Assembly (NCBI RefSeq): GCF_013201725.1
Contig: NZ_CP053835.1
Location: forward strand, 1,922,001 to 1,986,000
Source of the DNA: Arcobacter defluvii
GTDB lineage: Bacteria; Campylobacterota; Campylobacteria; Campylobacterales; Arcobacteraceae
Direction: 5' to 3'
Length of the DNA stretch: 64,000 nucleotides
Below the pieces are notes generated by a model. That model ran no database searches. It saw nothing but the letters and a program-made list of their open reading frames with translations, and was not told the DNA's origin. Shown here one piece after another: positions 13,079 to 40,348 of the stretch (position 1 is the first letter of the stretch; each line of letters starts with the position of its first letter). The position numbers and the translations under genes are program-made.

Positions 13079-13444
13079 TAAATCCTCAATTTTTAATATT
13101 TTTGATTATAAAAAATTATAGCTTTATAACATATTGTGATAATTTTGTTTTTATATGAATCTGTGTAAAATCCACTTTTTATAAGTAAAATAAAGAAATA
13201 AATTTTTATGTTTACAAGTGCTATAAAAGAAGAACTTTTCCTAAAACTAACATATCATATAAAAAAAGCTTATGAAGAGAGTTATTATATTCTTTAAGAT
13301 TCAAAGATTGATACTTTACAATCTTTATTAAATTTTTTGACACTTGAATATAATATTGTATGTTTGCATTCAAGTTTTAAAGCTTTTTATTTTATTAAAC
13401 ATTGTTCAAGTAAGAAATGGTTTTGAACCTAATGAAATTTTGAG
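13079..13444. other. Gap between hypF and the CRISPR array
   Basis: This 366-bp stretch holds the hypF promoter side, a possible gene remnant (13208-13426) and repeat-like fragments at the trailing end of the CRISPR array. The fragment at 13355-13374 matches the last 20 bases of the repeat at 16 of 20 positions. GTTCAAG recurs at 13404-13410, exactly 34 bases before the first intact repeat. No functional gene is evident. Confidence 0.45.
13208..13426 (+). pseudogene. Possible gene remnant with one in-frame stop
   Basis: From the ATG at 13208 a 29-codon frame (MFTSAIKEELFLKLTYHIKK and on) ends at a TAA (13295-13297). The same frame then continues for another 42 codons to a TGA at 13424-13426. 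The combined 71 residues look protein-like but match nothing I recognise. This could be a decayed gene, a short peptide gene or chance in AT-rich DNA, and its 3' part overlaps the decayed CRISPR repeats. Confidence 0.22.
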
Positions 13445-16400: not shown

Positions 16401-17193
16401 AGTGAAAACATTAATGAGTAAAAGACTTGTAATAGCGTTTCAATACATTATATGTTTAAGTTCAAGTATAGTGATATATTAAATTTTTTTGATAAAATTG
16501 TGTTTCAATACATTATATGTTTAAGTTCAAGGTTGAATTAGATATGCAAGACGGTAAAAAAAACAAGTTTCAATACATTATATGTTTAAGTTCAAGTTAA
16601 TGATAGTAAGTTATATCACAGCAGTTACACTAGAGTTTCAATACATTATATGTTTAAGTTCAAGTTGTTCTAAAAGAACTTTCATCAAGTCCTATTACAA
16701 CGTTTCAATACATTATATGTTTAAGTTCAAGAATGGAAAATTTAAAGCCTATTGATTATTTAGTTAGGTTTCAATACATTATATGTTTAAGTTCAAGTTT
16801 TATGATAAGTTGATTTTTTAGGTTTTGTATTTCTGTTTCAATACATTATATGTTTAAGTTCAAGTATTTTCCATGACCAATACAATCACAAATTTTAGGT
16901 TTCAATACATTATATGTTTAAGTTCAAGTCTCTATGTTTCATACTTCTTTTTTTTAAATCATTAAAGTTTCAATACATTATATGTTTAAGTTCAAGTTAC
17001 AGCTGATAGGTTAATTGGAGGTTTTCATTAGTTTCAATACATTATATGTTTAAGTTCAAGATTTTCTTCTATGTTTATGAAACTAAAGTTTAGTAAGGTT
17101 TCAATACATTATATGTTTAAGTTCAAGCTTGTATTTAATTACTTCTTTGTACTTAATATCAGGGTTTCAATACATTATATGTTTAAGTTCAAG
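13445..17193 (-). CRISPR. Type I-B CRISPR array, 58 repeats and 57 spacers
   Basis: I count 58 copies of a 30-bp repeat that begins GTTTCAATAC and ends TTAAGTTCAAG on the plus strand, from 13445-13474 to 17164-17193, with spacers of 34-38 bp. Read on the minus strand the repeat ends in ATTGAAAC, the usual 5' tag of type I-B crRNAs. Transcription therefore runs from the leader at 17194-17358 toward lower coordinates, and the newest spacers are near 17160. All repeats look identical except six consecutive ones (starting 13967, 14032, 14096, 14162, 14227 and 14292) whose plus-strand last base is A instead of G. No two spacers appeared identical. Confidence 0.98.
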
Positions 17194-17358: not shown

Positions 17359-18671
<1,313 letters not shown>

Positions 18672-18680
18672 TATTTACTC

Positions 18681-19181
18681 CTATATAAAACAGTATTCAA
18701 AATAAGCACATTTTTTACACTTATTCTCAAATTTTGGTTTTGGTGGAATTGATTGATTTATAAGATTTTCGATGTTTGTTAAAACTTCTAAAAGTTCTTT
18801 TTCATTTACTTCATCAAGTTCGATAAATTCTATCTTTTTATCGCCTCTTTTTTCTATGTATTCAATTTTGCCTTTTTTCTCTACACCTTTTTGTTTTAGT
18901 TTGTAAAGATAGAGTAAAACTTGCCATTTTACAGCTTGCGGGTCACTATCTGATTTTTTAACTTCGATAAGATAATCTCGTGTGATTTTGTCAATTTTGA
19001 TATTGTCAATGCTAATTTCAGTTTGTTTGCTTTTTTCTTCATTTATCTCATGTAAAACTTTTCCTATTCGAACATCTTCACTGTTGTCTTCTAAGTTTAT
19101 ACGGTTTGCGTGGAGCCATAGTTTTGTTTTACAAATAAAATAGTACGAGATGAGTGTTCCATTAACAGATAAATTCTTCAC
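18681..19181 (-). CDS. cas4: CRISPR-associated exonuclease Cas4
   Basis: Cas4 trims prespacers and selects those with a correct PAM. The 166-residue protein has the RecB-like nuclease elements: His in GKVLHEINEEK, the Asp and EVK motif around KITRDYLIEVKKSDSD, and a QVLLYLYKLKQKG helix. It also has four iron-sulfur cysteines, one near the N-terminus (YFICKTKLW) and three at the end (CKKCAYFEYC). Translation starts at a GTG preceded by AAAGG at 7-base spacing. It is separated from cas3 by 118 bp, the largest gap in the operon, so it may have its own promoter or RNA processing site. Confidence 0.93.
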   Translation of the reverse strand: MKNLSVNGTLISYYFICKTKLWLHANRINLEDNSEDVRIGKVLHEINEEKSKQTEISIDNIKIDKITRDYLIEVKKSDSDPQAVKWQVLLYLYKLKQKGVEKKGKIEYIEKRGDKKIEFIELDEVNEKELLEVLTNIENLINQSIPPKPKFENKCKKCAYFEYCFI

Positions 19182-19299
19182 TATACAACCTTTTTTACTA
19201 GCTAAAATAAATAACTTTTTTTATCATACTTCCGAAAAAACATAAAATATTTAAAACTGTACCTCTGAATATTACAAAGATGAAAATAATTCATCAGTA
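19182..19299 (-). other. Cas3-cas4 intergenic gap with small palindrome
   Basis: This 118-bp gap lies within an otherwise tightly packed operon. GATGAA-AATAA-TTCATC (19279-19295) lies directly after the cas3 stop and could form a weak hairpin. It divides the interference genes (cas6-cas3) from the adaptation genes (cas4-cas1-cas2). I see no clear promoter. Confidence 0.35.
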
Positions 19300-21492
19300 T
19301 TATTCTCCTAATTCATTTAAACCATTATTTTCATCAATATATATAATTCCTTCTTGAAAAGAGTATTTTAAATTTATGATTTCATAGTTTAATTTTTCTT
19401 GCGTTTGATACAAATATTCCTTTTCAAAATAAGTTGGTAGAGATATAGTATATTCATATTTAATTTTGTCATTCATATAATCATCATAAAGTAAATAATC
19501 ATTTTTTTGAAGTTTTTTATCTATATCTCTTAAATCATAATCATCTGGAGATTTGTTTATTCCTGATAATTTTTTTATTGTTTCATCATATTTTAAATAA
19601 GCAGAATCAAAAAGTCTTGAAACTTCATTATTGACGCTTTTATCCATTTCAAAAAGTTTATCATACACAGTATTTAGCCATTGTACATATTCTCCCAACT
19701 CAAAATATCCATCTTGAACAACATCAAAAGTTAAATCCAAAAGATATGAGTTTGTATATGGGGATACTTTAGAATATTTATAGATATAAATTTCACCTTT
19801 GTTATTTTCATCTTTTTTACGATTAACTCTTCCAAATCTTTGAATTAAACTATCGATTGGAGCATTATCAGTAAACATCACATCAAAATCAATATCAAGT
19901 GAAACTTCTACGATTTGTGTTGCAACAAGAATAAAAGGTTTGTCAGAACCTAATTTTTCAAAAATTAATTCTTCTTTTTTTTGCTTATCCATCTTTTTAA
20001 ATGTTGAGTGATATAGTACAATTTCTTCATCATCCAAAGAAAACATATCTTTTAAATATTTATATGTATCAGTCGCACTTTTAACGGTATTTCTAATGAT
20101 TAATATGTTTTTTGATTTTTCAAATTTTTCAAAAATGAAATTGGAATCATCATCTAGTTCATAATCTCTTTTTATAATTTCATTTGCTTTTTTCTTAAAT
20201 AAATTATTTTCCGTAATAACGGGATAATCTTTTATATTTAGTAACTCTTTTATTTTATTTGGTATGGATGCACTCATCAAACATACTCTTACATCATGCT
20301 CACAGCAAAGTTCTAAAAATCTTTTTAAAAACCCCATCAACTTAAAATCATAAGAATGCACTTCATCAATGATAATTACTGAATTTAGAAAGTTTTTAGT
20401 TGCGATATTGAATCTTCCAATATTGATGAAATATTTGAGTAATGAATCTATCGTAGAAACAGTTACTGGTTTATTAAAGCTTTTACTAACCAAAAAATTA
20501 CTATCAAACTGTTTATCGACAATTCCATTATCTTTTTCGTACTCTTTTTCTAAAAATATTTTTGCATTTGAATGAATCAAGCCACACTCGTTTTTATCAA
20601 AAAAGTTTTGAACTCTTTCATAGAGTTTATTAGATGTAGTTTGCGTTGGCAATGTATAAATTATTTTTGTATTTTCGTTGTATATATTTTTAATTGCCCA
20701 AAATAAAGAACCTTCTGTTTTTCCCTCACCGGTAGGAATCTCAACTAAAACACTTTGTGTACAATCTGCTAATTCATCTTGAAAATCTCTTAACTTATCA
20801 AAAGTTAAATGGCTCATAAAATCATCTTTTGAAGGTATAAAGCCAAATATTGTAATCGGTGTAGTTTGACTAAATCTTGCACTAGCAATCCAATCAGCCA
20901 AATTTAAAATACCTGATACATAGGTATATAAAATTCTTAATTTATGAGTTTGTTGAATTAGTTTTAAATCATTTTCTATATTTTCAATTTCAAATTTAAT
21001 ATCATCTGAAATATGAAAATTGAAAGAGTAACTACATTCTTTTTCAAGCATTTCTTTATATAAAGTTTTGTAGTTTTGAAAAAAATTTTTTGCTTTATCA
21101 AGAAAAATAAATTTTGAAGAATTGGCTGTATAAGGCATTAAAGAATGATGAGTAAGTGTAATTATCAATAAAAGATTAATATAAATATCATCTTCTAAAA
21201 ATTCGAAATCACCAATTGATTCTAACACACTTGCTGAATACATAGCATGATAAGATTGTGTTCCAGTTGTGATTGTATTTTGAAATTCTTTAGTTGCTTT
21301 ACCAACATCATGAAAGTAAGCACTAAAAAATATCAAATCTTTGATTTTATCTGTACTCCAACCAGAGATATTGGCTACCTTTTGAAGTGTTTTATTATCA
21401 ACTTGTTTTAAAGCTTCCTCAATAACCCATAAAGTATGCTCTTCTAAAGTTTGATACTCATCATTTAACTTTTTAGCCCAAATATCCATCAA
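19300..21492 (-). CDS. cas3: CRISPR-associated helicase/nuclease Cas3
   Basis: Cas3 is recruited by target-bound Cascade to unwind and degrade DNA. The 730 residues join an N-terminal HD nuclease (about 1-200; FFSAYFHDVGKATKEFQ gives the HD pair, with a further His in the LTHHSLMPY segment) to a superfamily 2 helicase with Walker A EIPTGEGKTEGSLF (about 260), DEVH box IIIDEVHSYD (about 385), motif III MSASIPNK and motif VI QRFGRVNRKK (about 578). All catalytic motifs are intact, so interference is probably functional. Its start overlaps the cas5 stop by 4 bases; the second Met is an alternative start. Confidence 0.96.
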   Translation of the reverse strand: MMDIWAKKLNDEYQTLEEHTLWVIEEALKQVDNKTLQKVANISGWSTDKIKDLIFFSAYFHDVGKATKEFQNTITTGTQSYHAMYSASVLESIGDFEFLEDDIYINLLLIITLTHHSLMPYTANSSKFIFLDKAKNFFQNYKTLYKEMLEKECSYSFNFHISDDIKFEIENIENDLKLIQQTHKLRILYTYVSGILNLADWIASARFSQTTPITIFGFIPSKDDFMSHLTFDKLRDFQDELADCTQSVLVEIPTGEGKTEGSLFWAIKNIYNENTKIIYTLPTQTTSNKLYERVQNFFDKNECGLIHSNAKIFLEKEYEKDNGIVDKQFDSNFLVSKSFNKPVTVSTIDSLLKYFINIGRFNIATKNFLNSVIIIDEVHSYDFKLMGFLKRFLELCCEHDVRVCLMSASIPNKIKELLNIKDYPVITENNLFKKKANEIIKRDYELDDDSNFIFEKFEKSKNILIIRNTVKSATDTYKYLKDMFSLDDEEIVLYHSTFKKMDKQKKEELIFEKLGSDKPFILVATQIVEVSLDIDFDVMFTDNAPIDSLIQRFGRVNRKKDENNKGEIYIYKYSKVSPYTNSYLLDLTFDVVQDGYFELGEYVQWLNTVYDKLFEMDKSVNNEVSRLFDSAYLKYDETIKKLSGINKSPDDYDLRDIDKKLQKNDYLLYDDYMNDKIKYEYTISLPTYFEKEYLYQTQEKLNYEIINLKYSFQEGIIYIDENNGLNELGE

Positions 21493-22205
21493 TAAAATAC
21501 CAATCTATTGTTATTTTCTACATCCACATAACTGATAACTCCATCAATCTGCATATTGCAATTAATGTATTCAACTTGTGGATATTCTTCAACAACCTCT
21601 TTTGAGATTCTATTTCCTTTTTTATCAAATGCAATAAATTTAATAGGTATCAAATTAGGTGTCGGTAACTCTATTGGTTTATTTTGCGCTTTTATAAATG
21701 TTTTGTAGGTGTAGCCTTTATTTAAAAATACAGAATTAACCCTGTTTGTATCGTTTGGTTTAATAGATTCACTTACATCTTCTACATTTTTGATAATCAC
21801 AAGCTCATCATCAAGCCCTAGGGACGGAGTATTTTTCGGATTTTTTAGAGATTCAAAAATATCATCAAAAAGTGTTTGCTCTTTTATGTAAACATAAATA
21901 GTGTATTTTGACAAAAATAGCTTATCTCTCCTGATAACACTTTTCCCCATATTTCCTTTTTCTAAAGTTTTATAACTCCATAAATCTTTAGTTTTCCCAC
22001 TAATTTCATCTATAACAACCGACACATCAATTAGCTCTTTATCCAGTATTTCAAAAAAATCTTTTTGTGGTCTTAAAGAGATATTACATAACATCCCTAT
22101 AACTGTTGTTTTCGGTGGAGCTAAAAAAGTTTTATGATATGTTCTGAAAAAAGGGATTCTAAATGAATTTAATAATCCCTCCAATTCAAATCTAATTACT
22201 TTCAT
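21489..22205 (-). CDS. cas5: Cascade subunit Cas5 (type I-B)
   Basis: Cas5 caps the 5' tag of the crRNA in Cascade. The 238-residue protein begins with the family motif RFELEGLLNSFRIPFFRTYHKTFLAPPKTTVIGML, in which the Ser-Phe-Arg and PPKTTVIGML elements are typical of Cas5 of types I-A and I-B. The rest is a divergent beta domain. It lies one base after the cas7 stop and is coupled to cas3 by a 4-base overlap. Confidence 0.9.
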   Translation of the reverse strand: MKVIRFELEGLLNSFRIPFFRTYHKTFLAPPKTTVIGMLCNISLRPQKDFFEILDKELIDVSVVIDEISGKTKDLWSYKTLEKGNMGKSVIRRDKLFLSKYTIYVYIKEQTLFDDIFESLKNPKNTPSLGLDDELVIIKNVEDVSESIKPNDTNRVNSVFLNKGYTYKTFIKAQNKPIELPTPNLIPIKFIAFDKKGNRISKEVVEEYPQVEYINCNMQIDGVISYVDVENNNRLVFY

Positions 22206-22206
22206 T

Positions 22207-23142
22207 TTAAGCTTCTATACAATTTTTGTACATTTCAATAGCTTGTGCAACAGTTACAACATTTGGAAATATATCTCTTATCTCTTGTTCATTTGCAAAA
22301 ATTCCTTTTGCAATTCCTATCGTATATTGTTCTGTTGTGTTATCTGCCAAAGCTTCTTTGATATTTTCAATATTAATATTGTCATTATTATCCACACTAA
22401 GAGCATTTAGTAAAAATGGGTTTCCTGTTTTTTGTTTAGAGATAATTATAAACTTCGGTGCAATATCCTCAAGATTTCTAGCTTGTTTTGCTCCACCGTT
22501 AAATGATTTGATTGCATCAAGAAGAACATTTAATCTTTTATTTTTTTCTTTATCGTCCAAAATAGCTTTTGATTCATAAGTATATTCATTGATTTCATTT
22601 CCAATATGAGAAGTATTTATCATGATATTTCCTCTCATAAAATTCTTTGTGTCTATTTCTACTTGAACAATATTCCCACTTTTCTTACTTTCATCTTCCA
22701 TTTTTTGTTTTCTTGTAAGATAATCGTATTCACCTTTGTAAGGTAATAATGAAACTAATGGGCTGACTTTTACAGGTGACCATCTTCTACCACCTTGTGG
22801 TAACATGTACCCAAATAAATCTAAGTCACAAACTGACTTATACATTTTATTTAATATATCAGCATCTATTTTTTTATTTAAATCAAGAAAGGTTTCTTTG
22901 CCATTTTTATCTTTATCTAAAAAGGTTGGATTCCCTTTTTCATCAACACTACTGATTTTTTCTTCAAGTTGCATAAGTGTCTCTTTTAGGTATCTTCGCA
23001 AAGCCTGACCTGAAACATAAGCAAATTCATCACCATTGGCATTTGAGATTTTTTTCATTACCGTGACATTTCCACCACTACCCTCGCCACCATTAAGTGA
23101 AGCTACATTTACTTTTGTGATATATGCGATATTTAAAAACAT
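22207..23142 (-). CDS. cas7: Cascade backbone Cas7 (Cst2/DevR type)
   Basis: Cas7 forms the helical backbone that holds the crRNA spacer. The 311 residues begin MFLNIAYITKVNVASLNGGE with the GGNVTVMKKIS and YVSGQALRRYLKETL motifs of the Cst2/DevR branch, and MLPQGGRRWSPVKVSPLVSLLPY at about 112-134. Members of this branch belong to type I-B (Tneap-like) systems. A GGAGAAAT ribosome site precedes the start, 14 bp after cas8b. The gene is full length with no anomaly. Confidence 0.92.
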   Translation of the reverse strand: MFLNIAYITKVNVASLNGGEGSGGNVTVMKKISNANGDEFAYVSGQALRRYLKETLMQLEEKISSVDEKGNPTFLDKDKNGKETFLDLNKKIDADILNKMYKSVCDLDLFGYMLPQGGRRWSPVKVSPLVSLLPYKGEYDYLTRKQKMEDESKKSGNIVQVEIDTKNFMRGNIMINTSHIGNEINEYTYESKAILDDKEKNKRLNVLLDAIKSFNGGAKQARNLEDIAPKFIIISKQKTGNPFLLNALSVDNNDNINIENIKEALADNTTEQYTIGIAKGIFANEQEIRDIFPNVVTVAQAIEMYKNCIEA

Positions 23143-23156
23143 TTTATTTCTCCTTT

Positions 23157-25669
<2,513 letters not shown>

Positions 25670-26629: not shown

Positions 26630-28162
26630 TTAATAGTCTAAAGGATACTCTTTAGGTAAGATTGTATTATAATTTTTACTTAAAGTTTTTATTGCTTTTG
26701 ATAATAAAATAGAATTAGCAAACATATTTCCACACAAAACAACATCTGTTGCTTTTGTCTCTTTTGCAATTTCATTTACATAATTACTTATAAACTCACT
26801 CAAGCTTTCATAAAATGAATAAACCAATGTAATATTATCAACATCTGCCATTTTATAAGCCATTATTGATTGAACTATTCTTCTATAATCTAAATAATTT
26901 ATTCCATCAAAATTTATAAGTTTCATATCAATCTGAATACCACTTGATAAATTTGCACTCAAAGCAGTATCTTCAAACTCTTTAGCACTATTTATTCCTA
27001 AAACTTTTGCACATAAATTAATAATAGACTCAAAACCATTTGCATTTGCTGGAACATCACTTTCTAAAACAAATGGAAATTTTTTACTAAAATTTGTAAT
27101 TAATCTTGCACAATGTTCATCAATATCAGCTATTTCTTCAAAACAATTTTTTATATTATTATGAATGTTTGGAATAACTATAATTTGTTTTATACCTTTT
27201 GTAGGAAGATTTATAGATATTGAACTTTTTTGATTATTTTGAGAAAAATAAACTCCAATACTTGGAACTAATCTTTTTGCTACTTGAGCTAAAATAGCTT
27301 TATAAACACCACCATTTTCATCAAAATACTCTTTTGAACTATTAAACTTTTTTCTCGCAATAAAATCATATTTAGGGAATAATCCTTTATCACCACTTAC
27401 TATGATATTTTGTTCTTTATTATATGTAACTTTTAGGCCATCTTGATAAACTTCATCATTTGCATATAAAACATAATCTATTCCATTTTCTTTTAAAGAT
27501 TTGGCAAATAAAACAACTTCTTTATCATCAGGAATTTTTGCATAAATAAAGTTTGTTGAACTAAACTCTTTATTTGCATTTTTTAAAAGTTTAAATTTCA
27601 ACTTTACAAGTGGTCGTTCTATTGAACATAAAAGTTGAAAATCTTTCATATTTAAATCAAAAATTTCATCAAGTTTAGTAGTATTTGTAATAAGAAGTTT
27701 TACTTCATAACCTCTTTTTTCAAAGTCTTCTCTTATATTCTTATTTGGTAAAAAGTAATCTTTTAAACCATTATGTGTTTCAAATCTTGAAATCTCACCT
27801 TTTGAAATTTTTACAATATCGTTTAAAAAATCGATATTATTCTCTTCAATTATCTGTTTTATTGCATCGTTTGTTAGAAGAGTCAGATTTTGTTTTATAT
27901 CAAAATCTTCAATTTCTTCTAAATTTTCATCATAACTCTCAACAACATAAGAGTTTCCTATAAATATTGACATTGGCAATTTTTTTTCAAGTAGTGCAAA
28001 AAAACTCTCAATATTTGAAGCTTCTTCCTCTAGTATAATTAAAATAAATCCTTGATATTGTTTGCAAATAGCATTTACTTTTGCTTCTTTTATAAGTTTT
28101 TCTATAATATATTTAAAATATAAATTCGTTGTATTAAATTCTATTTTATAGATTAATTGCAT
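26630..28162 (-). CDS. hydE: Hydrogenase accessory protein HydE
   Basis: HydE is found with the membrane-bound hydrogenase of Campylobacterota (Wolinella and Helicobacter hydABCDE operons), where it is needed for active enzyme. The 510-residue protein looks like a divergent HypF relative: an acylphosphatase-like start (YKIEFNTTNLYFKYIIEKL) and a C-terminal VVLCGNMFANSILLSKAI that parallels VVLSGGVFQNKLLLE of HypF at 10832-13078. It lacks the zinc-finger cysteines. I place the start at 28162, which has GAGGAAG at proper spacing; the upstream ATG at 28180 has none. It overlaps hydD. Confidence 0.85.
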   Translation of the reverse strand: MQLIYKIEFNTTNLYFKYIIEKLIKEAKVNAICKQYQGFILIILEEEASNIESFFALLEKKLPMSIFIGNSYVVESYDENLEEIEDFDIKQNLTLLTNDAIKQIIEENNIDFLNDIVKISKGEISRFETHNGLKDYFLPNKNIREDFEKRGYEVKLLITNTTKLDEIFDLNMKDFQLLCSIERPLVKLKFKLLKNANKEFSSTNFIYAKIPDDKEVVLFAKSLKENGIDYVLYANDEVYQDGLKVTYNKEQNIIVSGDKGLFPKYDFIARKKFNSSKEYFDENGGVYKAILAQVAKRLVPSIGVYFSQNNQKSSISINLPTKGIKQIIVIPNIHNNIKNCFEEIADIDEHCARLITNFSKKFPFVLESDVPANANGFESIINLCAKVLGINSAKEFEDTALSANLSSGIQIDMKLINFDGINYLDYRRIVQSIMAYKMADVDNITLVYSFYESLSEFISNYVNEIAKETKATDVVLCGNMFANSILLSKAIKTLSKNYNTILPKEYPLDY

Positions 28163-28736
28163 GTGTAAAATCTTCCTCATTTGGTATTCTATTTAAGTGC
28201 TCGCCATTATAACTTCCTATCATACTTTTTACGACATCACTTATTGCAATATTATCTACTTTAGTAGCTTTTATACCTAAAGATTCTATCTCTTTTATAC
28301 CATTTAAAATAAACTCTTCAAACTTATCTTCCATTTTTTGTGTTAATCCAATTTCAACACTTATTATATCTTCTGGAATAATTCCTATAATTGTTACATT
28401 TGCATGAGAATCTAAAACAGAAACTATCTCTAACATCTCAACAATTTCAACTTCGTGAGCTGTTTTTCTATAGTTCCCAAGTCCCAAAAGAACATCACTT
28501 GGAAGTCTATAAATTCCTCCAACTTCATCCTCAATAGAAACTGTATCTAAAATAATTACATTGTCATATTCTTGAAAATATGCCATTAGTTTAAAACCTA
28601 ATGTTCCACCATCAATAATTTCTAAGTCTTCATCATCAAACTTATAATTTTGTTTGATATATTCACTTGCATAAATTCCTATACCTTCATCTTTGAAAAG
28701 CATATTTCCAACGCCAATAACAATATTTTTTTTCAT
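28146..28736 (-). CDS. hydD: Hydrogenase maturation protease HydD
   Basis: HydD removes the C-terminal peptide of the large subunit after nickel insertion. The 196 residues show the HyaD/HybD fold with its nickel-sensing residues: Glu in GVGNMLFKDEGIG (about 17), Asp in VIILDTVSI (about 60) and His in KTAHEVEIVEML (about 93). Its substrate is HydB, which keeps a C-terminal extension; the second large subunit at 32754 has none. It is separated from hydC by an 85-bp gap that contains a hairpin, and overlaps hydE by 17 bases. Confidence 0.93.
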   Translation of the reverse strand: MKKNIVIGVGNMLFKDEGIGIYASEYIKQNYKFDDEDLEIIDGGTLGFKLMAYFQEYDNVIILDTVSIEDEVGGIYRLPSDVLLGLGNYRKTAHEVEIVEMLEIVSVLDSHANVTIIGIIPEDIISVEIGLTQKMEDKFEEFILNGIKEIESLGIKATKVDNIAISDVVKSMIGSYNGEHLNRIPNEEDFTHAINL

Positions 28737-28784
28737 TAAATTACACCCTTTATAACTCTTTTATAAATTTAGTAATTAAACTTA

Positions 28785-28821
28785 TAAAAAAGTTAATAAG
28801 GTTAAGCCTTTATGCTTAACC
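28785..28821 (-). terminator. Hairpin between hydC and hydD
   Basis: GGTTAAGC (28800-28807) and GCTTAACC (28814-28821) form a perfect 8-bp stem directly after the hydC stop codon. On the minus strand it is followed by TTATTAACTTTTTT, so it may act as a partial terminator that lowers hydDE expression relative to hydABC. Confidence 0.6.
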
Positions 28822-29526
28822 CTATTTTTCTTCTTTTTCTCTTACGAATTTACTTCCACCAATAACAATAGCAATATCTCCCTCTTTCCAGAAGATTGTT
28901 CGCCAAATTTGGTAATAAATATGACACATTACCCAAACTAAGATTAAATACATTGATGTATGATGAGCAATTCTTACTCCCATATTTCCACCAAATACAT
29001 TTAATGTCCAATCTGTTGCAATATGAAGCATTGCTGGCCACCAAGCTCCAATAGAACTTTCACCTGAAGCTAATCCGTGAACATATAATTGAAGACCAGT
29101 AAATAACATAAATATTAATAATAGGTGAAATATCGTAAAAAATACAATATTATAACTATCACTATGAGAAGAATCAAAATTTTTTCTTCTATTAAATGTT
29201 ATTAAATTTAAAAATACCTCAAAAAACTCTTTTATATTTTTTCCTGTTGGAATCAATTTTTTATATGGTTTTTCAAATCTTGAAAAGAAATATAAATAAC
29301 CAATTAATACAGCAGTTACATCAAATATAATTGCGACAATAAAATGTCCCCATCTATTCCAAGCCATTACATACTTATCCACTGCTGGATCAGCAATAAA
29401 GCTTTGATAATATGGATGACCTATATATAAACCGGTTATAACAGCAACAACCATACATATAGCATTTGCCCAATGTACGATTCTCATAGTTGCTGTCATT
29501 CTTTTAACCTCTTTTATTTTAGGCAC
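28822..29526 (-). CDS. hydC: Ni/Fe-hydrogenase cytochrome b subunit HydC
   Basis: HydC anchors the hydrogenase in the inner membrane and passes electrons from the small subunit to quinone via two b hemes. About four to five membrane segments are visible, with candidate heme histidines in MRIVHWANAI, RWGHFIVAIIFD, LLHIATDWTL and RIAHHTSMYLILVWVMCHI. I place the start at the GTG at 29526, which has GGAGG at 8-base spacing and overlaps the hydB stop by 8 bases; a TTG 15 bases upstream is the alternative. This gives 234 residues, normal for the family. Confidence 0.92.
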   Translation of the reverse strand: MPKIKEVKRMTATMRIVHWANAICMVVAVITGLYIGHPYYQSFIADPAVDKYVMAWNRWGHFIVAIIFDVTAVLIGYLYFFSRFEKPYKKLIPTGKNIKEFFEVFLNLITFNRRKNFDSSHSDSYNIVFFTIFHLLLIFMLFTGLQLYVHGLASGESSIGAWWPAMLHIATDWTLNVFGGNMGVRIAHHTSMYLILVWVMCHIYYQIWRTIFWKEGDIAIVIGGSKFVREKEEK

Positions 29527-31261
29527 GGCTTGTTCCTCCAATTGGATCTACTTTATAAACTCCTAACTCTTTACCGTTAGTATCAATAATATGTACAGCA
29601 CAAGCAATACATGGATCAAAACTATGAACTGTTCTTAAAATCTCAAGCGGTTGATCTGGATTTGCTACTTTTGTACCAACTAAAGATGATTCATAAGCTC
29701 CCATTCTTCCTTTATAGTCTCTTGGAGCTGCATTCCAAGTTGATGGAACAACAGCTTGATAATTTACTACTTTACCATCTTTGATTTTTATCCAGTGACC
29801 TAAACCACCTCTTGGAGCTTCAGCCATTCCATAACCTTGTGCTTCTTTTGAAACATTATCAAAGTTAAATTCTGTCCAAGTTGATAAATCACCATGTGCA
29901 ACATTTGAAGCTAATTCATCAACCCATTCCATCATAACATCTGCCATAAGTTCAGTTTCTATTGCACGTGCTGCTGTTCTACCAACTGTTGAGAATAAAA
30001 CTTTTGTTGGTAAATTTCCATTTTTTAAGAAAGTTGTTACATACTTAGAAATTCTTTCATCACCTCGTGCAACACCAACTATCATTCTTGCAAGTGGACC
30101 TACTTCCATTCTTTCATCATTATATAATGGTGATTTAATCCAAGAATATTTTTTTGTTGTATCTAAATAAGCAACATTATCTTCTTTTTTACCAAACCCT
30201 GTATAATTAGGTTTTGTTACTCCATCAAATGGATGTAAATTTGTAGCACCTTCATACCAAGAGTGAGTTACATCTTCTGTAATTTTTGTTTGGTCAATAT
30301 CAAAAACTTTTGATAAATCTCTATTTTTTACAATACCTGAAGGGAAAAGTTTAGCTGATTCATAAAAAGGTGTATCATCAAGTCTAAAATCACCATACGA
30401 CATATAGTTTCCTATACCTCCACCAATTCCTTCAAGAGCTTCATCAGCATACATTGTTCCAGCCATATAAACATCTGGTAAATATGCCTCTTTTGTGAAT
30501 TTTTGACCTCTTTTTAAGATTTGTTTAAATTCTGCAATTCTTGCAGGATTTTTAATATCTTGAACACAAGTTACTCCACCAACAACAAAAGATTGTGGAT
30601 GTGGATTTTTTCCACCAAAAATAGCCATCATTTTTGCTAAATCTCTTTGTAATTCAAGTGCATCTAAATAGTGAGAAAGTCCTATCAAATTTTGTTCAGG
30701 AGTAAGTTTAAATCCTTTACTTCCCCAATATGCATTTCCAAAAATTCCAAGTCTTCCTTGTTTTACATATTTTGTAACTCTTTCTTGAACAGCTGCATAA
30801 ACATCTTCATTTGCATTCCATGGTCTATGACCTGACACACTTGCCCATTTTTGAGCTTCTGCAACTGTTGCTTTTGGATCAGCTTTAAGTGCTTCAGTGA
30901 TATCAACCCAGTCAAGTGCATGTAAATGATAGAAGTGAACAATATGGTCATGTAAATATAAAGCACCTTGAATAAGGTTTCTTACTAATCTTGCATTTTT
31001 AGGAATAGTAATATTAAAAGCATGTTCAACAGCTTCAATACTTCTTTGATAGTGAGTTCCTGTACAAACTCCACAAATTCTCATCGCTAATAAACCACAA
31101 TCTCTTGGATCTCTTCCTTTTAAAATCTCTTCAATTCCTCTAAACATAGTTGAAGAAGAGTAAGCATCTGTTACAACATTGTTTTCATCAATGATTGCCT
31201 CAATTCTAAGATGTCCTTCTATTCTTGTAATTGGGTCAATTACTAAATGTTTTTGTGCCAT
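29519..31261 (-). CDS. hydB: [NiFe]-hydrogenase large subunit HydB
   Basis: HydB carries the NiFe active site of a respiratory, periplasm-facing H2-uptake enzyme (group 1 type). The 580-residue protein has the N-terminal nickel motif RICGVCTGTH (about 62) and the C-terminal motif DPCIACAVH, followed by about 23 residues (IIDTNGKELG and on) that HydD would remove after the His. Its ATG shares a base with the hydA stop (TAATG), so expression of the subunits is coupled. Length and motifs are normal. Confidence 0.97.
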   Translation of the reverse strand: MAQKHLVIDPITRIEGHLRIEAIIDENNVVTDAYSSSTMFRGIEEILKGRDPRDCGLLAMRICGVCTGTHYQRSIEAVEHAFNITIPKNARLVRNLIQGALYLHDHIVHFYHLHALDWVDITEALKADPKATVAEAQKWASVSGHRPWNANEDVYAAVQERVTKYVKQGRLGIFGNAYWGSKGFKLTPEQNLIGLSHYLDALELQRDLAKMMAIFGGKNPHPQSFVVGGVTCVQDIKNPARIAEFKQILKRGQKFTKEAYLPDVYMAGTMYADEALEGIGGGIGNYMSYGDFRLDDTPFYESAKLFPSGIVKNRDLSKVFDIDQTKITEDVTHSWYEGATNLHPFDGVTKPNYTGFGKKEDNVAYLDTTKKYSWIKSPLYNDERMEVGPLARMIVGVARGDERISKYVTTFLKNGNLPTKVLFSTVGRTAARAIETELMADVMMEWVDELASNVAHGDLSTWTEFNFDNVSKEAQGYGMAEAPRGGLGHWIKIKDGKVVNYQAVVPSTWNAAPRDYKGRMGAYESSLVGTKVANPDQPLEILRTVHSFDPCIACAVHIIDTNGKELGVYKVDPIGGTSRA

Positions 31262-32496
31262 TATTTTTCTTCTCCTTCATTTGATTTTTTACCAGCAACA
31301 ATAGATGCTACGGCATGAACTCCAATTCCAACTGCAGTTGCTGTTAATAATCCAAGTCCAAATTCATCAACAGTTTTTTCAACTCCACCAGTAGGAGCTT
31401 TTATTTTTGCATTTGCCATTGGTCTTTCATATGCATATTTATCCCAGAAATCTGGCTCAGAACATCCAATACACCCTCTTCCTACCCCAATTGGCCAGTT
31501 TGTACCTTCGTTATATCGAACAATTGAACAGTTATTAAATGTCATTGGTCCTTTACAACCAACTTTATATAAACAGAAGTTATTTTTAGCTCCTTCATCT
31601 CCCCACTCTTCAACAAATTCACCAGCATCAAAGTGAGCTCTTCTTTCACAATTATCATGGATTCTATAACCAAATGCAAATTTTGGTCTTAATAATGAAT
31701 CAAGTTCTGGAATTTGTCCTGTTAAAACAAAATGTAAAATAACTCCTACCATATTTGCTGGATTTGCAGGACAAGCTGGAATATTTACAACTGGTTTTCC
31801 TTTTACTAAATCCATAACTCCAACTGCACCTGTTGGATTTGGTGCAGCTGCTGGGATTCCACCAAATGTAGCACAAGTTCCTACTGCAACAACAGCTGCT
31901 GCATCTTTTGACATTCTCATTAAATGTTCATGAAAAGTCTCACCACTAGCACCTATTGTTCCATATTGACCATTCATTCCCATAGGAATTGCACCTTCAA
32001 CAAATAATAAATATTTACCTTTAAAATGCTCAACTGCCTCTTCAAGTTGTTTATCAGCATCAAATCCTGCACAAGCTTGTAAAGTTTCATGAAATTCTAA
32101 ACTTAATACATCAAATAATAAATCATCAACAGTCGGAGCACTACTTCTTAGTAATGCTTCAGAATTTCCAGCACAGTCTTGTAACTCAATCCAAATAACT
32201 GGCACTCTATTCATAAGTTCAGTTGCCTCTGCAACAAGCGGAGCAAACATAGGAGGAAGCATAAGTGTAGCAGTTGTTGCACTAACCCACTTCATAAAAT
32301 CTCTTCTATTTATTCCTTCACTATCAATTATATCCATCATATCAATATCTTTAAGTGGCTCTTGAGCTCTTAAAGTTTTTAATCTTTGTTTAGCTTTTGC
32401 AAATAAAGTGTTATAATATACTTCACCTTTATTTGTTTCAACTCGCCCTGATTTTTGGGTAAAAACTTTTTTTACCATCTGTGTTGAATCAATCAT
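31261..32496 (-). CDS. hydA: [NiFe]-hydrogenase small subunit HydA
   Basis: HydA holds the three iron-sulfur clusters that carry electrons from the NiFe site to HydC. A Tat motif RRDFMKW lies at about residues 64-70, behind a long N-region as in other Campylobacterota, followed by a hydrophobic stretch ending near VAEA. Cluster cysteines appear in ELQDCAGNSEA, VGTCATF, IPACPANPAN, HDNCERRAHF, CLYKVGCKGPMTFNNCS and CIGCSEPDFW. A C-terminal membrane helix anchors it. The start at 32496 has an AAGGAG ribosome site; the upstream ATG at 32526 has none and would lie across a palindrome. Confidence 0.95.
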   Translation of the reverse strand: MIDSTQMVKKVFTQKSGRVETNKGEVYYNTLFAKAKQRLKTLRAQEPLKDIDMMDIIDSEGINRRDFMKWVSATTATLMLPPMFAPLVAEATELMNRVPVIWIELQDCAGNSEALLRSSAPTVDDLLFDVLSLEFHETLQACAGFDADKQLEEAVEHFKGKYLLFVEGAIPMGMNGQYGTIGASGETFHEHLMRMSKDAAAVVAVGTCATFGGIPAAAPNPTGAVGVMDLVKGKPVVNIPACPANPANMVGVILHFVLTGQIPELDSLLRPKFAFGYRIHDNCERRAHFDAGEFVEEWGDEGAKNNFCLYKVGCKGPMTFNNCSIVRYNEGTNWPIGVGRGCIGCSEPDFWDKYAYERPMANAKIKAPTGGVEKTVDEFGLGLLTATAVGIGVHAVASIVAGKKSNEGEEK

Positions 32497-32512
32497 AATC
32501 TCACTCCTTAAA

Positions 32513-32528
32513 AAATGAATATTCATTT
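32513..32528. promoter_or_regulatory. Palindromic operator-like site before hydA
   Basis: AAATGAATATTCATTT is a perfect 16-bp palindrome placed just upstream of the hydA ribosome site. A related site (TGAAT-n4-ATTCA) lies at 32740-32753 at the other end of the intergenic region. The shape suits a TetR-type dimer, and a TetR gene is encoded at 34995-35585. Confidence 0.45.
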
Positions 32529-32739
32529 ACTTTATTGTAAAATAACAATAAGAAACTTATGTCTCTCTTAATAATAATTTACAAAAAGTAGCTTAAAAAT
32601 AGCAAAAAAATATTTATTAGTATAAAAGAAGTTAATAATTATGATTTTGTGGGGTTTATTTTTCTTATTTGTTCTATTTTTATATAAGAGTTAATCTGTT
32701 TCAGTTTTTTTTAACTTTGTTACTAATATACACTTTTTT

Positions 32740-32753
32740 TGAATGATTATTCA
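32740..32753. promoter_or_regulatory. Second TGAAT/ATTCA inverted repeat upstream of hydA
   Basis: TGAATGATTATTCA has 5-bp arms around a 4-base centre and the same half-site as the palindrome at 32513-32528. It lies against the stop codon of the sensor-type large subunit gene, at the far end of the hydA upstream region. It could be an upstream operator or activator site; chance is possible in AT-rich DNA. Confidence 0.35.
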
Positions 32754-34109
32754 CTAATGTGTTGTACAAACTGAACACACGTCAAAACTTCTCAAAACAA
32801 TTTTTGCAATTTCAATAGAAGGCAATCCTATCATAGCATTTTGAGCTATTCCTTTTTGTTTTTTATAAACAGGACCTAAATTCCAAACAGTTGGAGTTAT
32901 TACATCATAAGATTTTATTTTGCCTTTTTCTATATTTATTTTATGATATAAAGAACCTCTTGTTGCTTCAACTACTGAAATTGCACTAGCTTTTTCAATT
33001 TCACTTAGAATTATTTTAGGTTTAATAAAAGAATCTTCTTTTATATTTATTTTTGAGATTAATGATTTTGTATCATCGATTAAATATGCAAGTTCATCAA
33101 GTCTTGACATTACTCTTGTAAAAACAGAATCTGCATAATTTTTATGAATATCTTTTATAAATTTTCTATTTGAAGTTATTGCTCTTGCAAGTGGACCTGT
33201 TTCATAAATATTGTCATTATAAGAAACCGATTTACTCCAAGTATGCTTTTTATCATTGTATTCTTTTTCATTCATTGAAAAAGTAAAATCACTATTTTCT
33301 GAAACTTTTGTCAAATCAATTTTATTTACTAACTTTATTTTTATTTTTCCATTCTTGAAAAGATTTGTTTCTCCTAAAGTTATAAATCTATTATATGATT
33401 TACCAAAATTTTGTAAATTATGTTTAAAACATAAATCTTTGAAACATTTCATATCTGAGTTTAATTTTTCAATATTATTTACACTATCAAAAGATAAATA
33501 ATTTTCTAAAGAGATTCCAGCAATAGATTTTTCAAAAAAAACAAGTGCAGAATGAAGATAGTTTTGAATATTTACTAAATCCATTAAAGTTGGATCACTT
33601 ACAACTCCACCAGGAAGCATATAAGAACTATGAGGCCATTGACCACCAATAATTGCTAAAGATTTTATTGTTTCACTTGCTGTTTTACAAGCTTCAAGCC
33701 ATCTTTGTCCTTTTAAAGGTTCATAAATTCCTAAATCATTGCTATCAAGTTTTATAATATCTGGCATAATAAACAGATAAAACCATTTTATATGAGAATC
33801 AATAATTTCAATATTTAAACCAATTTGTCTTAAAAGCTTTGCTTTTTGTGTAACTTCAAGTTTTTCACCAATGTTTTCATATACATTTTCTAAAGCATCA
33901 ACAGTAGCTTTAAGATGAGCTTGACCACAGATTCCACAAATTCTGGGAGTATATATCAATGCATCTAAAGGTGATTTTCCTTCTAAGATATATTCAAAAC
34001 CTCTAAAATTCAAAAAATCTATTCTTGCATCACTTATTATTCCATCTTTCCACGTACAGTTAAGTTTAGCTTCACCTTCAATTCTTTCTACTATATCTAC
34101 TGTCTTCAC
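32754..34109 (-). CDS. H2-sensor-type [NiFe]-hydrogenase large subunit (HupV/HoxC-like)
   Basis: The 451-residue protein has both nickel-binding motifs, RICGICGQAH (about 57) and DVCSVCTTH, but it ends exactly at this last His. The maturation peptide is therefore absent, as in regulatory H2-sensing hydrogenases (HupV, HoxC), which need no endopeptidase. The usual Pro of DPC is replaced by Val. It follows the small subunit gene by 2 bp and has no signal peptide, so the complex is cytosolic. Low H2 turnover linked to sensing is inferred. A soluble group 2 uptake enzyme is the alternative. Confidence 0.85.
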   Translation of the reverse strand: MKTVDIVERIEGEAKLNCTWKDGIISDARIDFLNFRGFEYILEGKSPLDALIYTPRICGICGQAHLKATVDALENVYENIGEKLEVTQKAKLLRQIGLNIEIIDSHIKWFYLFIMPDIIKLDSNDLGIYEPLKGQRWLEACKTASETIKSLAIIGGQWPHSSYMLPGGVVSDPTLMDLVNIQNYLHSALVFFEKSIAGISLENYLSFDSVNNIEKLNSDMKCFKDLCFKHNLQNFGKSYNRFITLGETNLFKNGKIKIKLVNKIDLTKVSENSDFTFSMNEKEYNDKKHTWSKSVSYNDNIYETGPLARAITSNRKFIKDIHKNYADSVFTRVMSRLDELAYLIDDTKSLISKINIKEDSFIKPKIILSEIEKASAISVVEATRGSLYHKINIEKGKIKSYDVITPTVWNLGPVYKKQKGIAQNAMIGLPSIEIAKIVLRSFDVCSVCTTH

Positions 34110-34111
34110 TT

Positions 34112-35005
34112 TTATTCCATTAGTTTTTTATGTAATCTATCTATTTTAAAAGTTTTAGCAACACCACTTATACTTAAATATGCTCGTTTTGAAATTCCTA
34201 AAGGAACTTCTTGAGGTATTCCCATATTTTTTTTTGTTTCTAACATATTATTTCTTGGAAAATCTGTTTCTGTACAACCAATACAAGGCATTCCAACTCT
34301 TGTTTTAGAACTTATTTCATTCCATAAAATTTTATTGCAAGAACTATGAGTCATAGGACCTCTACATCCTTGATTATAAAATAAACATCCTTCTTTTTGT
34401 CCAAAATTTCCTTCTACTTTCCACTCAAAATATTCATTTCTGGTACAACCATGATGAGCTAAAGTACTATAAAGTTCTTTTGGTCGTCCAACTTCATCTA
34501 AATCTATTTTGCCAAAAGTTTTTAAACTAAAAAGTGTTTGAAAAATCCATTCTGGATGAACAGGACACCCTGAGAGATTTATTATTGGATGAATAAGAGT
34601 TTGAAGATTATTATTTTCTAAAGCCTCTTTTATTCCACAAATATCATCATTTTGAGTAAATTTTGCATGAATTCCACCAAATGAGGCACATGAACCTACT
34701 GCAATAATGTACTTTGATCTTAAAGCTAATTTTTCTAATAAGTTTTTTGATGAATCATTTGAAATTGAAAAAATAAATTCATTTGAAGATATTGAACCTT
34801 CAACTAATAAAAAATCTATCTCTTTTTGATTTTCTAAAATATATTCAAGTGAATTATTTATAGTTAAACTAGGATGATATATAAGATTAAAACTATTTAA
34901 AAAAAGTTCAAACCTATTTGAGTTTGAACTTAATAGTGAGTGTGTATTTCCATTACAAGTAATTGCTTGAAACCAGACTATAGTCGGTTTAAACTCATGC
35001 ATCAT
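34112..35005 (-). CDS. H2-sensor-type [NiFe]-hydrogenase small subunit (HupU/HoxB-like)
   Basis: The 297-residue small subunit lacks a Tat signal and a C-terminal membrane anchor, both of which HydA has, so it stays in the cytosol. Cluster ligands are visible in AITCNGNTHS, VGSCASFGG, LSGCPVHPEW, HHGCTRNEYFEW, CLFYNQGCRGPMTHSSC and CIGCTETDFP. This matches HupU/HoxB small subunits of H2 sensors. Its start overlaps the TetR stop by 11 bases (8 if the second Met is used), so sensor and regulator are translated together. Confidence 0.85.
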   Translation of the reverse strand: MMHEFKPTIVWFQAITCNGNTHSLLSSNSNRFELFLNSFNLIYHPSLTINNSLEYILENQKEIDFLLVEGSISSNEFIFSISNDSSKNLLEKLALRSKYIIAVGSCASFGGIHAKFTQNDDICGIKEALENNNLQTLIHPIINLSGCPVHPEWIFQTLFSLKTFGKIDLDEVGRPKELYSTLAHHGCTRNEYFEWKVEGNFGQKEGCLFYNQGCRGPMTHSSCNKILWNEISSKTRVGMPCIGCTETDFPRNNMLETKKNMGIPQEVPLGISKRAYLSISGVAKTFKIDRLHKKLME

Positions 35006-35585
35006 ACTTTAATGCTCGATAAATATTTTCTGCTACTGCATCTGAATAACTTAATAAATCTTTATCTAAAACATTTTCTCCACTTAAAAATGCGAATCCA
35101 CCTAAACATCCCATAATCATTCCAAATGCAGGGAAAAATTCTTGTTCTCTAAACTCTTTTTTTTGTGCACCATCATCAAGTAAAATCATAACTTCTGTTA
35201 CAAACTCTCCTACACATAAAAAGCCTTCACAACCTTGTTTAAAAACTTCTCTATTTGATAAGTAAACTCTTAAAAAATATTCAACAATTTCAGGAGATTT
35301 TTGAACATTTTCTAAATATTTTTTAACAAATAAATAAATCTTCTTTTTTGAAGTTATATCCATATTGTTAACTTCTCTTAACTCTTCTGCTAAAATATTT
35401 GTAGAATATTTAATTGCAAATTTGGCTAATTCTTCTTTTGAAGAGAAGTAATTATACATATTACCCACACTCATTTTCATAGCTTTTGCAATATCTGGAA
35501 TTGTAGTATTATAAAAACCTTTTTGAGAAAAAAGTTTTAAAGCATTTTCTATAATTGAATTCTTTTTGTTTTCTTTATTATTAAT
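34995..35585 (-). CDS. TetR-family regulator, apparent AUU start
   Basis: A TetR-type repressor of 196 residues if started at an ATT codon at 35585. The frame from there reads NSIIENALKLFSQKGFYNT, then TIPDIAKAMKMSVGNMYNYF and SSKEELAKFAI, a complete TetR HTH. The first ATG in frame (35480) would cut off most of that HTH. No ATG, GTG, TTG or CTG exists between the upstream TAG and 35480. An AAAGG site lies 7 bases before the ATT. A one-base deletion after an out-of-frame ATG at 35590 is the alternative. It is the first gene of the sensor-hydrogenase operon. Residues beyond about 60 form the ligand and dimer domain. Confidence 0.75.
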   Translation of the reverse strand: MNNKENKKNSIIENALKLFSQKGFYNTTIPDIAKAMKMSVGNMYNYFSSKEELAKFAIKYSTNILAEELREVNNMDITSKKKIYLFVKKYLENVQKSPEIVEYFLRVYLSNREVFKQGCEGFLCVGEFVTEVMILLDDGAQKKEFREQEFFPAFGMIMGCLGGFAFLSGENVLDKDLLSYSDAVAENIYRALKYDA

Positions 35586-35661
35586 AACATATCCTTTAAA
35601 GAATTTTGACTATGATATTATATTTATTATTAATAAAATATGAAGTAAAAAAGTAAGAAAT

Positions 35662-39856: not shown

Positions 39857-40348
39857 TTAATTATAGCCTAAGTCTTCTAGTTGTTTTGTTTTTTTATCAA
39901 GTTCTTCTAAAGCTTTTTTATAATCACTTACATCAAGCATAATACCAACAAGACCTAAAATTTCTCCATCCATGATAAATGATGATTTATAAAAATGATA
40001 ATCTCTTGTTATATCATCAGCACACTTCACTTTTCCCTCATAAAATTGTTCTTTTGAAGTCAAAAAAAGTTCTTTATCTTTTTCATAATATAAATCAGCA
40101 TTTTCTTTTGGAATAACATGACCTAAATCATAAAGAGTTTTTCCTATAATTTCCTCTTTTGGGATTCCTAATATAATTTTTGAAAAAGCATCATTACAAT
40201 GCTGATAAACTCCGTCTTTATCTTTATAAAACATAGGACTTGGAATAATATCAAATAGTTTTTTTAAAAAAAAATTATTAAATTTTGCTTCTTTTTCTAA
40301 AAATGCAATTTTTAAAGTTAACTCTTCATAACTCAATCTTTGTTTCAT
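39857..40348 (-). CDS. Stand-alone PAS-domain protein
   Basis: A 163-residue soluble protein with a short N-terminal helix (LTLKIAFLEKEAKF), one PAS domain (about 30-145; PSPMFYKDKDGVYQHCNDAFSKI and GEILGLVGIMLDVSDY) and a C-terminal coiled coil. It has no output domain, so it may act by binding a partner histidine kinase or cyclase, or be the sensor half of a split system. The ligand is unknown. The gene is monocistronic and divergent from def. Confidence 0.8.
   Translation of the reverse strand: MKQRLSYEELTLKIAFLEKEAKFNNFFLKKLFDIIPSPMFYKDKDGVYQHCNDAFSKIILGIPKEEIIGKTLYDLGHVIPKENADLYYEKDKELFLTSKEQFYEGKVKCADDITRDYHFYKSSFIMDGEILGLVGIMLDVSDYKKALEELDKKTKQLEDLGYN

Follow-up and report, generated by a model that had tools for sequence, protein, structure and literature searches.

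The window, by which we mean the whole stretch of 64,000 nucleotides (nt) of Arcobacter defluvii analysed here (contig NZ_CP053835.1, positions 1,922,001 to 1,986,000), carries on its minus strand a module of three genes, tetR, hupU, and hupV, which encode a TetR-family regulator and the two subunits of a cytoplasmic [NiFe] hydrogenase. We consider it probable that tetR-hupU-hupV is a kinase-free hydrogen switch, in which HupUV is most likely the H2 sensor and exerts control over TetR with no kinase between them, and in which TetR very probably regulates the hyd and hyp genes via an 18-base-pair (bp) palindrome; DNA binding, the response to H2, and the step from HupUV to TetR are what we infer.

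The gene order on the minus strand is acnB, a small lipoprotein-like gene, tetR, hupU, hupV, and then the uptake hydrogenase cluster, comprising hydA, hydB, hydC, hydD (maturation protease), and hydE. The tetR frame stops at 34995, inside hupU (35005–34112), which gives an overlap of 11 nt, and a gap of 2 nt separates the stop of hupU from the start of hupV at 34109. The first-pass annotation of this DNA had reported the overlap of tetR with hupU and the location of the module directly upstream of hydABCDE, and the window coordinates bear out both. The ATG of hydA is found at 32496 with AAGGAG ahead of it, and the start of a longer open reading frame, 32526, falls within the putative operator O1. 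In the whole genome, a PF00374 search finds two [NiFe] large subunits only, HydB and HupV. The features of the region are as follows.

34995–35585, minus strand: tetR, TetR/AcrR-family regulator of 196 residues, with an ATT start and Cys119-x4-Cys124 (PF00440, E 2.4e-15; AlphaFold2 model)
34112–35005, minus strand: hupU, cytoplasmic [NiFe] hydrogenase small subunit of 297 residues, with CNGN replacing the usual proximal-cluster CxxC (PF01058/PF14720)
32754–34109, minus strand: hupV, [NiFe] hydrogenase large subunit without a C-terminal maturation peptide (PF00374)
32512–32529, no strand assigned: O1, putative operator, TAAATGAATATTCATTTT on the minus strand, just 5' of the hydA ribosome site AAGGAG at 32509–32504 (sequence comparison)
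32740–32757, no strand assigned: O2, operator-like site, TTAGTGAATAATCATTCA on the minus strand, overlapping the hupV stop (sequence comparison)
32534–32539, minus strand: putative hydA -10 box TACAAT, upstream of O1 (consensus only)
32556–32571, minus strand: TTAAG/ATAAG direct repeat, spacing 11 bp, on the 5' side of the hydA -10 box, a possible second input
31261–32496, minus strand: hydA, uptake hydrogenase small subunit with a twin-arginine translocation (Tat) leader, proposed target gene (TIGR00391)
26630–31261, minus strand: hydB, hydC, hydD, and hydE, the remainder of the uptake hydrogenase cluster
35617–35644, minus strand: promoter-like site TTCATA-16-TATAAT upstream of tetR (consensus only)

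In the promoter and terminator scan, the number of promoter-like sites in the region was equal to that in shuffles.

The linkage of the three genes was read in a first set of 104 genomes of the window's family, a second set of 397 genomes drawn from the phylum, and a third set of genome contigs, all from Campylobacterota and taken as the best 80 of 278. Outside the family, 40 of the 76 HupV-bearing genomes were fetched, representing nine other families. Of the 62 family loci read, two are cut off by contig ends, and in the remaining 60 (60/60 of those assessable) HupU has TetR ahead of it. The same order holds in all 40 loci from the nine other families, and TetR adjoins HupU in 69 of the 75 loci with enough upstream sequence in the third set. 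This linkage is far from chance. The synteny that the first-pass annotation had proposed to look for is conserved in all ten families sampled, where identity to the window proteins outside the family is 50–61% for TetR and 32–44% for HupV, and comparison of the sequences shows the three genes to be an old unit. One of the six exceptions in the third set (L249) has a short insertion between tetR and hupU, while in the genomes behind the other five and behind the cut contig L253 TetR is found elsewhere in five of six cases. The displaced TetR lies directly before hypF (TIGR00143) in L304, L305, and L306, and before a formyltransferase/crotonase fusion, which we take to be HypX-like, in L302; that of L303 is beside no hydrogenase gene.

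HupV is present in 65 of the 104 family genomes and in 104 of the 397 phylum genomes, the non-family ones all belonging to the same order. Among the family genomes, HydB is found in 85, TetR in 67, and TetR together with HupV in 64, and 18 keep HydB with neither TetR nor HupV. TetR without HupV occurs in G048 and G103, whose contigs end inside hupU, and in the draft genome G073, where TetR is followed by the palindrome and then by hypF; HupV without TetR occurs in G095 only, at a contig end. On this pattern of presence and absence, the proposal that TetR tracks HydAB instead of HupUV was rejected. A few loci show local peculiarities of their own: the insertion in L249 (4141–4621) is a pair of small genes, toxin-antitoxin-like by sequence reading; the nearest hupV start was found 0.4–1.9 kb past the hupU stop in L038, L056, L086, L088, L090, and L093; and hupU of L092 reads as two pieces.

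The putative operator emerged from a blind count of gapped palindromes in hydA upstream regions, compared with shuffles. Within the family, 49 of 56 such regions contain AATGAN4TCATT, where shuffles predict 0.1; outside the family, TGAATN4ATTCA occurs in 19 of 29 against a shuffle expectation of 0.0. Both are parts of one 18-bp palindrome, TGAATGAATATTCATTCA, that is positioned at hydA just before the ribosome site. Upstream regions were scored by their best 18-mer with a threshold of 13/18, and the strict patterns were used separately. The module-negative genomes used for hydA span five genera; L169 was left out of these controls because its genome, G103, has TetR, and L371 (no HypB match) is absent from the 18-mer scoring. 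At 13/18 or better, the motif precedes the orthologous hydA in 58/58 cases with the module and in 0/11 without it (maximum 12). By the strict patterns, which four of the 58 fail while passing 13/18, the counts are 54/58 and 0/11, respectively, or 14/16 and 0/8 within the window's genus. Upstream of hypB, the threshold is reached in 24 of 32 cases with the module and in none of 17 without it, and in the control, upstream of hydB, in none of 62. A second type of hydA, 51–53% identical, carries the strict-pattern motif in 12/12 genomes with the module and 0/8 without it, and the palindrome is also found upstream of tetR in 27 of 60 loci. In the third set, the motif is present at 43 of 53 adjacent hydA, defined by a HydA identity of at least 45% and a position on the same strand after HupV (rows counted by eye). 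The genome that contains the window (3.02 Mb) has six sites matching the 18-mer with at most three mismatches (two for the reversed control), two of them between hupV and hydA. A -10 box ahead of the operator is seen in 69 of 81 cases, modestly above shuffles (mean 55.4, maximum 66).

The palindrome, a putative operator by sequence comparison, follows the presence of TetR. At both hydA and hypB, sites resembling the operator come and go with the TetR-HupUV module, and regulation of hydrogenase genes by TetR is therefore very probable. The "one-component" H2 or redox route proposed in the first-pass annotation is thereby supported in part, control of TetR by HupUV, H2, or redox state being a proposal; the term itself is inexact, as it would take two proteins, one to sense and one to regulate.

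TetR has the TetR_N helix-turn-helix, and its AlphaFold2 model adopts the TetR fold with a predicted local distance difference test score (pLDDT) of 89.9. Its nearest folds are FadR-type regulators (PDB 3whb and 5gp9, template modelling score about 0.77–0.78), which are alike in fold but share only 20–22% identity and differ in the hydrogenase context and in the C-x4-C motif. Of 100 aligned TetRs, 99 have this motif and the remaining one is a gap row; all 69 TetRs of the contig set, which overlaps in part with the aligned one, have it too. In the model, it is located in the loop before helix 126–141, and we regard it as no more than a pointer to redox or metal sensing. Diverged relatives of TetR (46–53% identity) were noted in L300, L307, and L308, with CDNENC or CEHEDC replacing the CEGFLC-like C-x4-C, and the one in L300 is placed before the palindrome and hypF.

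The tetR frame lacks ATG, GTG, and TTG, and its start, which agrees with the first-pass coordinates, is the ATT at 35585, with AAGGA 6 nt before it. Of 60 family loci, 24 start tetR with ATT or ATA (18 ATT and 6 ATA: the window, L045, L046, L066–L085, and L087), and AAGGA lies 6 nt before this codon in 22 and 7 or 10 nt before it in two; the commonest other start is TTG. The possibility that tetR is a pseudogene, for want of a standard start codon, was rejected on the strength of these 24 loci and their AAGGA spacing. The AUU start of infC is a comparable weak start, and by analogy the conserved weak start of tetR may hold the level of TetR low.

HupV ends with ...FDVCSVCTTH directly at the stop codon, and in related loci, too, C..C..[H/Q/K] closes the protein with no extension in 100 of 100 HupV. 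In each of the 17 aligned HupU, no more than a few residues precede the first cluster motif and there is no Tat leader, whereas the leader of HydA is long (RRDFMKW). Both traits had been claimed in the first-pass annotation, and the window proteins agree with it, HupV terminating at CTTH without a maturation peptide and HupU, with its 297 residues, lacking a Tat signal. The cluster ligands of HupU, to which we assign their presumed roles, are kept, except that CxGN or a similar form replaces CxxC, with L146 and L147 as exceptions. The best PDB matches of both HupU and HupV are entries of "Hydrogenase-2" (7uur/7utd), which we take to be Huc. At the position of HoxC residue 62, Ile (in CGIC) is found in 100/100 HupV, as well as in 2a-like sequences; this residue and Phe110 presumably line a narrow gas channel.

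In a tree with few references, and those without groups 2c–2e, HupV forms a clade (100/100) apart from a clade of HoxC with the HupV of Azospirillum and Bradyrhizobium (100/100), from 2a-like sequences, and from group 1. Strict membership in group 2b was rejected, as the 2b sequences form their own clade; the pair, taken in the first-pass annotation for a sensor of the HoxBC/HupUV kind, is outside the group 1 uptake clade of this tree and is not a strict HoxBC/HupUV ortholog. It very probably belongs to the same enzyme group as group 2d (HuaSL, HupSL) of Campylobacterota, a designation taken from PMC12286921, where group 2d huaSL names the pair in genomes with hynAB sets, those of A. butzleri and Sulfurospirillum. 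Here and below, statements from the literature rest on parts of the papers cited.

The module resembles the HoxBC-HoxJ-HoxA system of Cupriavidus necator (group 2b, HupUV-HupT-HupR type) in having a cytoplasmic two-subunit hydrogenase beside uptake hydrogenase genes, in the missing maturation peptide, in the Ile of CGIC, and, for the window protein, in the Phe at HoxC 110. It differs in that a TetR beside HupUV replaces the kinase and the NtrC-type regulator, in belonging to a separate clade, and in the small-subunit tail after the last cluster Cys, which is 53–58 residues long in HupU and 70 in HoxB.

In the mechanism that we propose, a TetR dimer would bind the 18-bp palindrome and repress hydABCDE, as well as hypB with whatever is co-transcribed; repression at hydA is suggested by the location of the palindrome between the putative -10 box and the ribosome site. 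HupUV would be made in step with TetR through the overlapping genes, would oxidise H2, and in that state would relieve TetR, so that the uptake hydrogenase and its maturation machinery would be made when H2 is present. That HupUV informs TetR of H2 is suggested by how closely the two are linked, by the features of a sensor hydrogenase, and by one transcriptome. Signal transfer is the least certain step, our best guess being direct contact, with electrons from the iron-sulfur clusters of HupU reaching the Cys-x4-Cys of TetR. The specific proposal that TetR is the electron acceptor of HupUV, with H2 electrons passing via the HupU clusters into the Cys pair to switch DNA binding, is a tentative one that we regard as somewhat doubtful.

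Published expression data are mixed. In A. butzleri with H2, both hynAB sets go up 2.3- to 6.2-fold, in a comparison that also changes the electron donor and in which 1191 of 2260 genes differ, and the same source gives no difference in hynAB of a Sulfurospirillum between H2 and formate (PMC12286921). A number of observations weigh against the switch proposed here. The huaSL genes of A. butzleri go down with H2 as hynAB rises (PMC12286921), a pattern at odds with simple repression shared by both. In S. multivorans, hydB shows no significant rise with H2, and the authors of that study call it constitutive and without an H2 sensor (PMC5357620); the falling huaSL and the flat hydB are real difficulties. 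The other hydA of module-bearing genomes (42–49% identity) has the motif in one of eight cases, and 8/32 hypB and 33/60 tetR promoters score below 13/18. G462 has HupUV and no close TetR, and Phe occupies the HoxC 110 position in 48 of 100 HupV, as well as in that of the window. The Fisher p values (7e-10, 6e-5, and 2e-7) are guides only, as they overstate independence because the genomes are related, and some of the module-negative genomes are incomplete drafts. Finally, the motif is missing from 10 of the 53 adjacent hydA of the third set, and a Nautiliaceae-like clade accounts for eight of these. The hupV-hydA gap in that clade is about 30–120 bases in seven of the eight loci and 1.3 kb in one, and the related L146 and L147 have the word TGAAnATTCATGCA before tetR, so that one promoter may serve both in this clade.

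HupUV could instead be a working cytoplasmic hydrogenase, for example one reducing ferredoxin for CO2 fixation, that is a mere member of the regulon of a ligand-responsive TetR. We regard this as unlikely. In its favour, an enzymatic role has been argued in print for the group (PMC4584964, PMC5357620), whose role these papers call unclear or speculative, the HupU cluster ligands are kept except for one Cys, and the closest folds to TetR are acyl-CoA regulators of the FadR type. Were HupUV a mere target, one might expect some of the genomes that keep HydB without HupUV to retain TetR and the operators, but TetR is missing in 18/18 of them and the motif in 19/19 hydA promoters read there. The lack of H2 uptake by S. 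denitrificans soluble fractions, cited in PMC4584964, and the fall of huaSL with H2 in A. butzleri also argue against it. A further reading is that the palindrome is bound by a regulator other than TetR that disappeared along with the module, and that TetR controls its own operon only; this is, in our view, very improbable. The authors of the S. multivorans study did propose, in one sentence, that the TetR-like gene upstream of hupSL may encode a repressor of hupSL itself (PMC5357620), and binding of TetR to the palindrome is something we infer from sequence. However, the palindrome also precedes tetR in the 27 loci counted above, the displaced TetR is found at hypF or the HypX-like gene in four of five cases, G073 has the order TetR, palindrome, hypF, and the absence of yet another gene from just these genomes was judged less likely.

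HupUV might also signal, like HoxBC, via a histidine kinase encoded elsewhere, with TetR as a separate modulator. Kinases are indeed many in this genome, where a search with C. necator HoxJ gave 37 matches (E up to 1e-5); yet the best reaches 58 bits, all 37 begin at HoxJ residue 169 or later with no match to the first 168 residues, and therefore no HoxJ ortholog is seen. None of the 37 lies within the window range, in agreement with the first-pass statement that no kinase is near, and no HoxJ-like kinase is found among them that could stand for the distant partner which that annotation had named as a refuting case. A direct repeat of [TA]TAAG with 11-bp spacing, of a kind typical of OmpR-type response regulators, is present in 38 of 58 module-positive hydA promoters of the family, but also in 4 of 11 module-negative ones and in 0 of 23 outside the family. 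Taken together, we hold signalling through a distant kinase to be improbable; the repeat suggests a second, independent input at hydA in the window's family, through a response-regulator-like box. As a separate observation, the window encodes on the far side of aconitase (39857–40348) a protein of 163 residues with a PAS domain only and no kinase part.

The open-licence literature searched yielded no account of a TetR-HupUV sensor system or of its operator. The portions of the literature cited here do not present group 2d HuaSL/HupSL as a sensor that acts with TetR on hyd and hyp genes. The adjacency of TetR and hupSL in S. multivorans is the same as in the window; the present analysis adds that the linkage extends across the order, that sites occur at hydA and hypB, and that TetR carries the Cys pair. 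In Nautilia, the enzyme is labelled H2-sensing and is numbered next to an uptake operon (PMC2628731), while distribution, clusters, or general regulation are covered in PMC10470523, PMC7952632, PMC6682613, and PMC4584990. Whether the cytoplasmic group 2 hydrogenase of Campylobacterota acts as sensor or enzyme is debated (PMC4584964), and the module, operator, and regulon make the sensor reading testable. The kinase-free switch would be a candidate H2 response system for widespread vent, sediment, and animal-associated bacteria and, if true, an H2 sensor working without a histidine kinase; should the electron-transfer step also hold, H2 would be read by direct transfer of electrons to a protein that binds DNA, and the module that does so occurs in families throughout the order.

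Elsewhere in the window (13444–17193 and 17359–25630), an array of clustered regularly interspaced short palindromic repeats (CRISPR) with the 30-nt repeat GTTTCAATACATTATATGTTTAAGTTCAAG lies beside cas genes, which include Cas1 of type I-B and Cas3.

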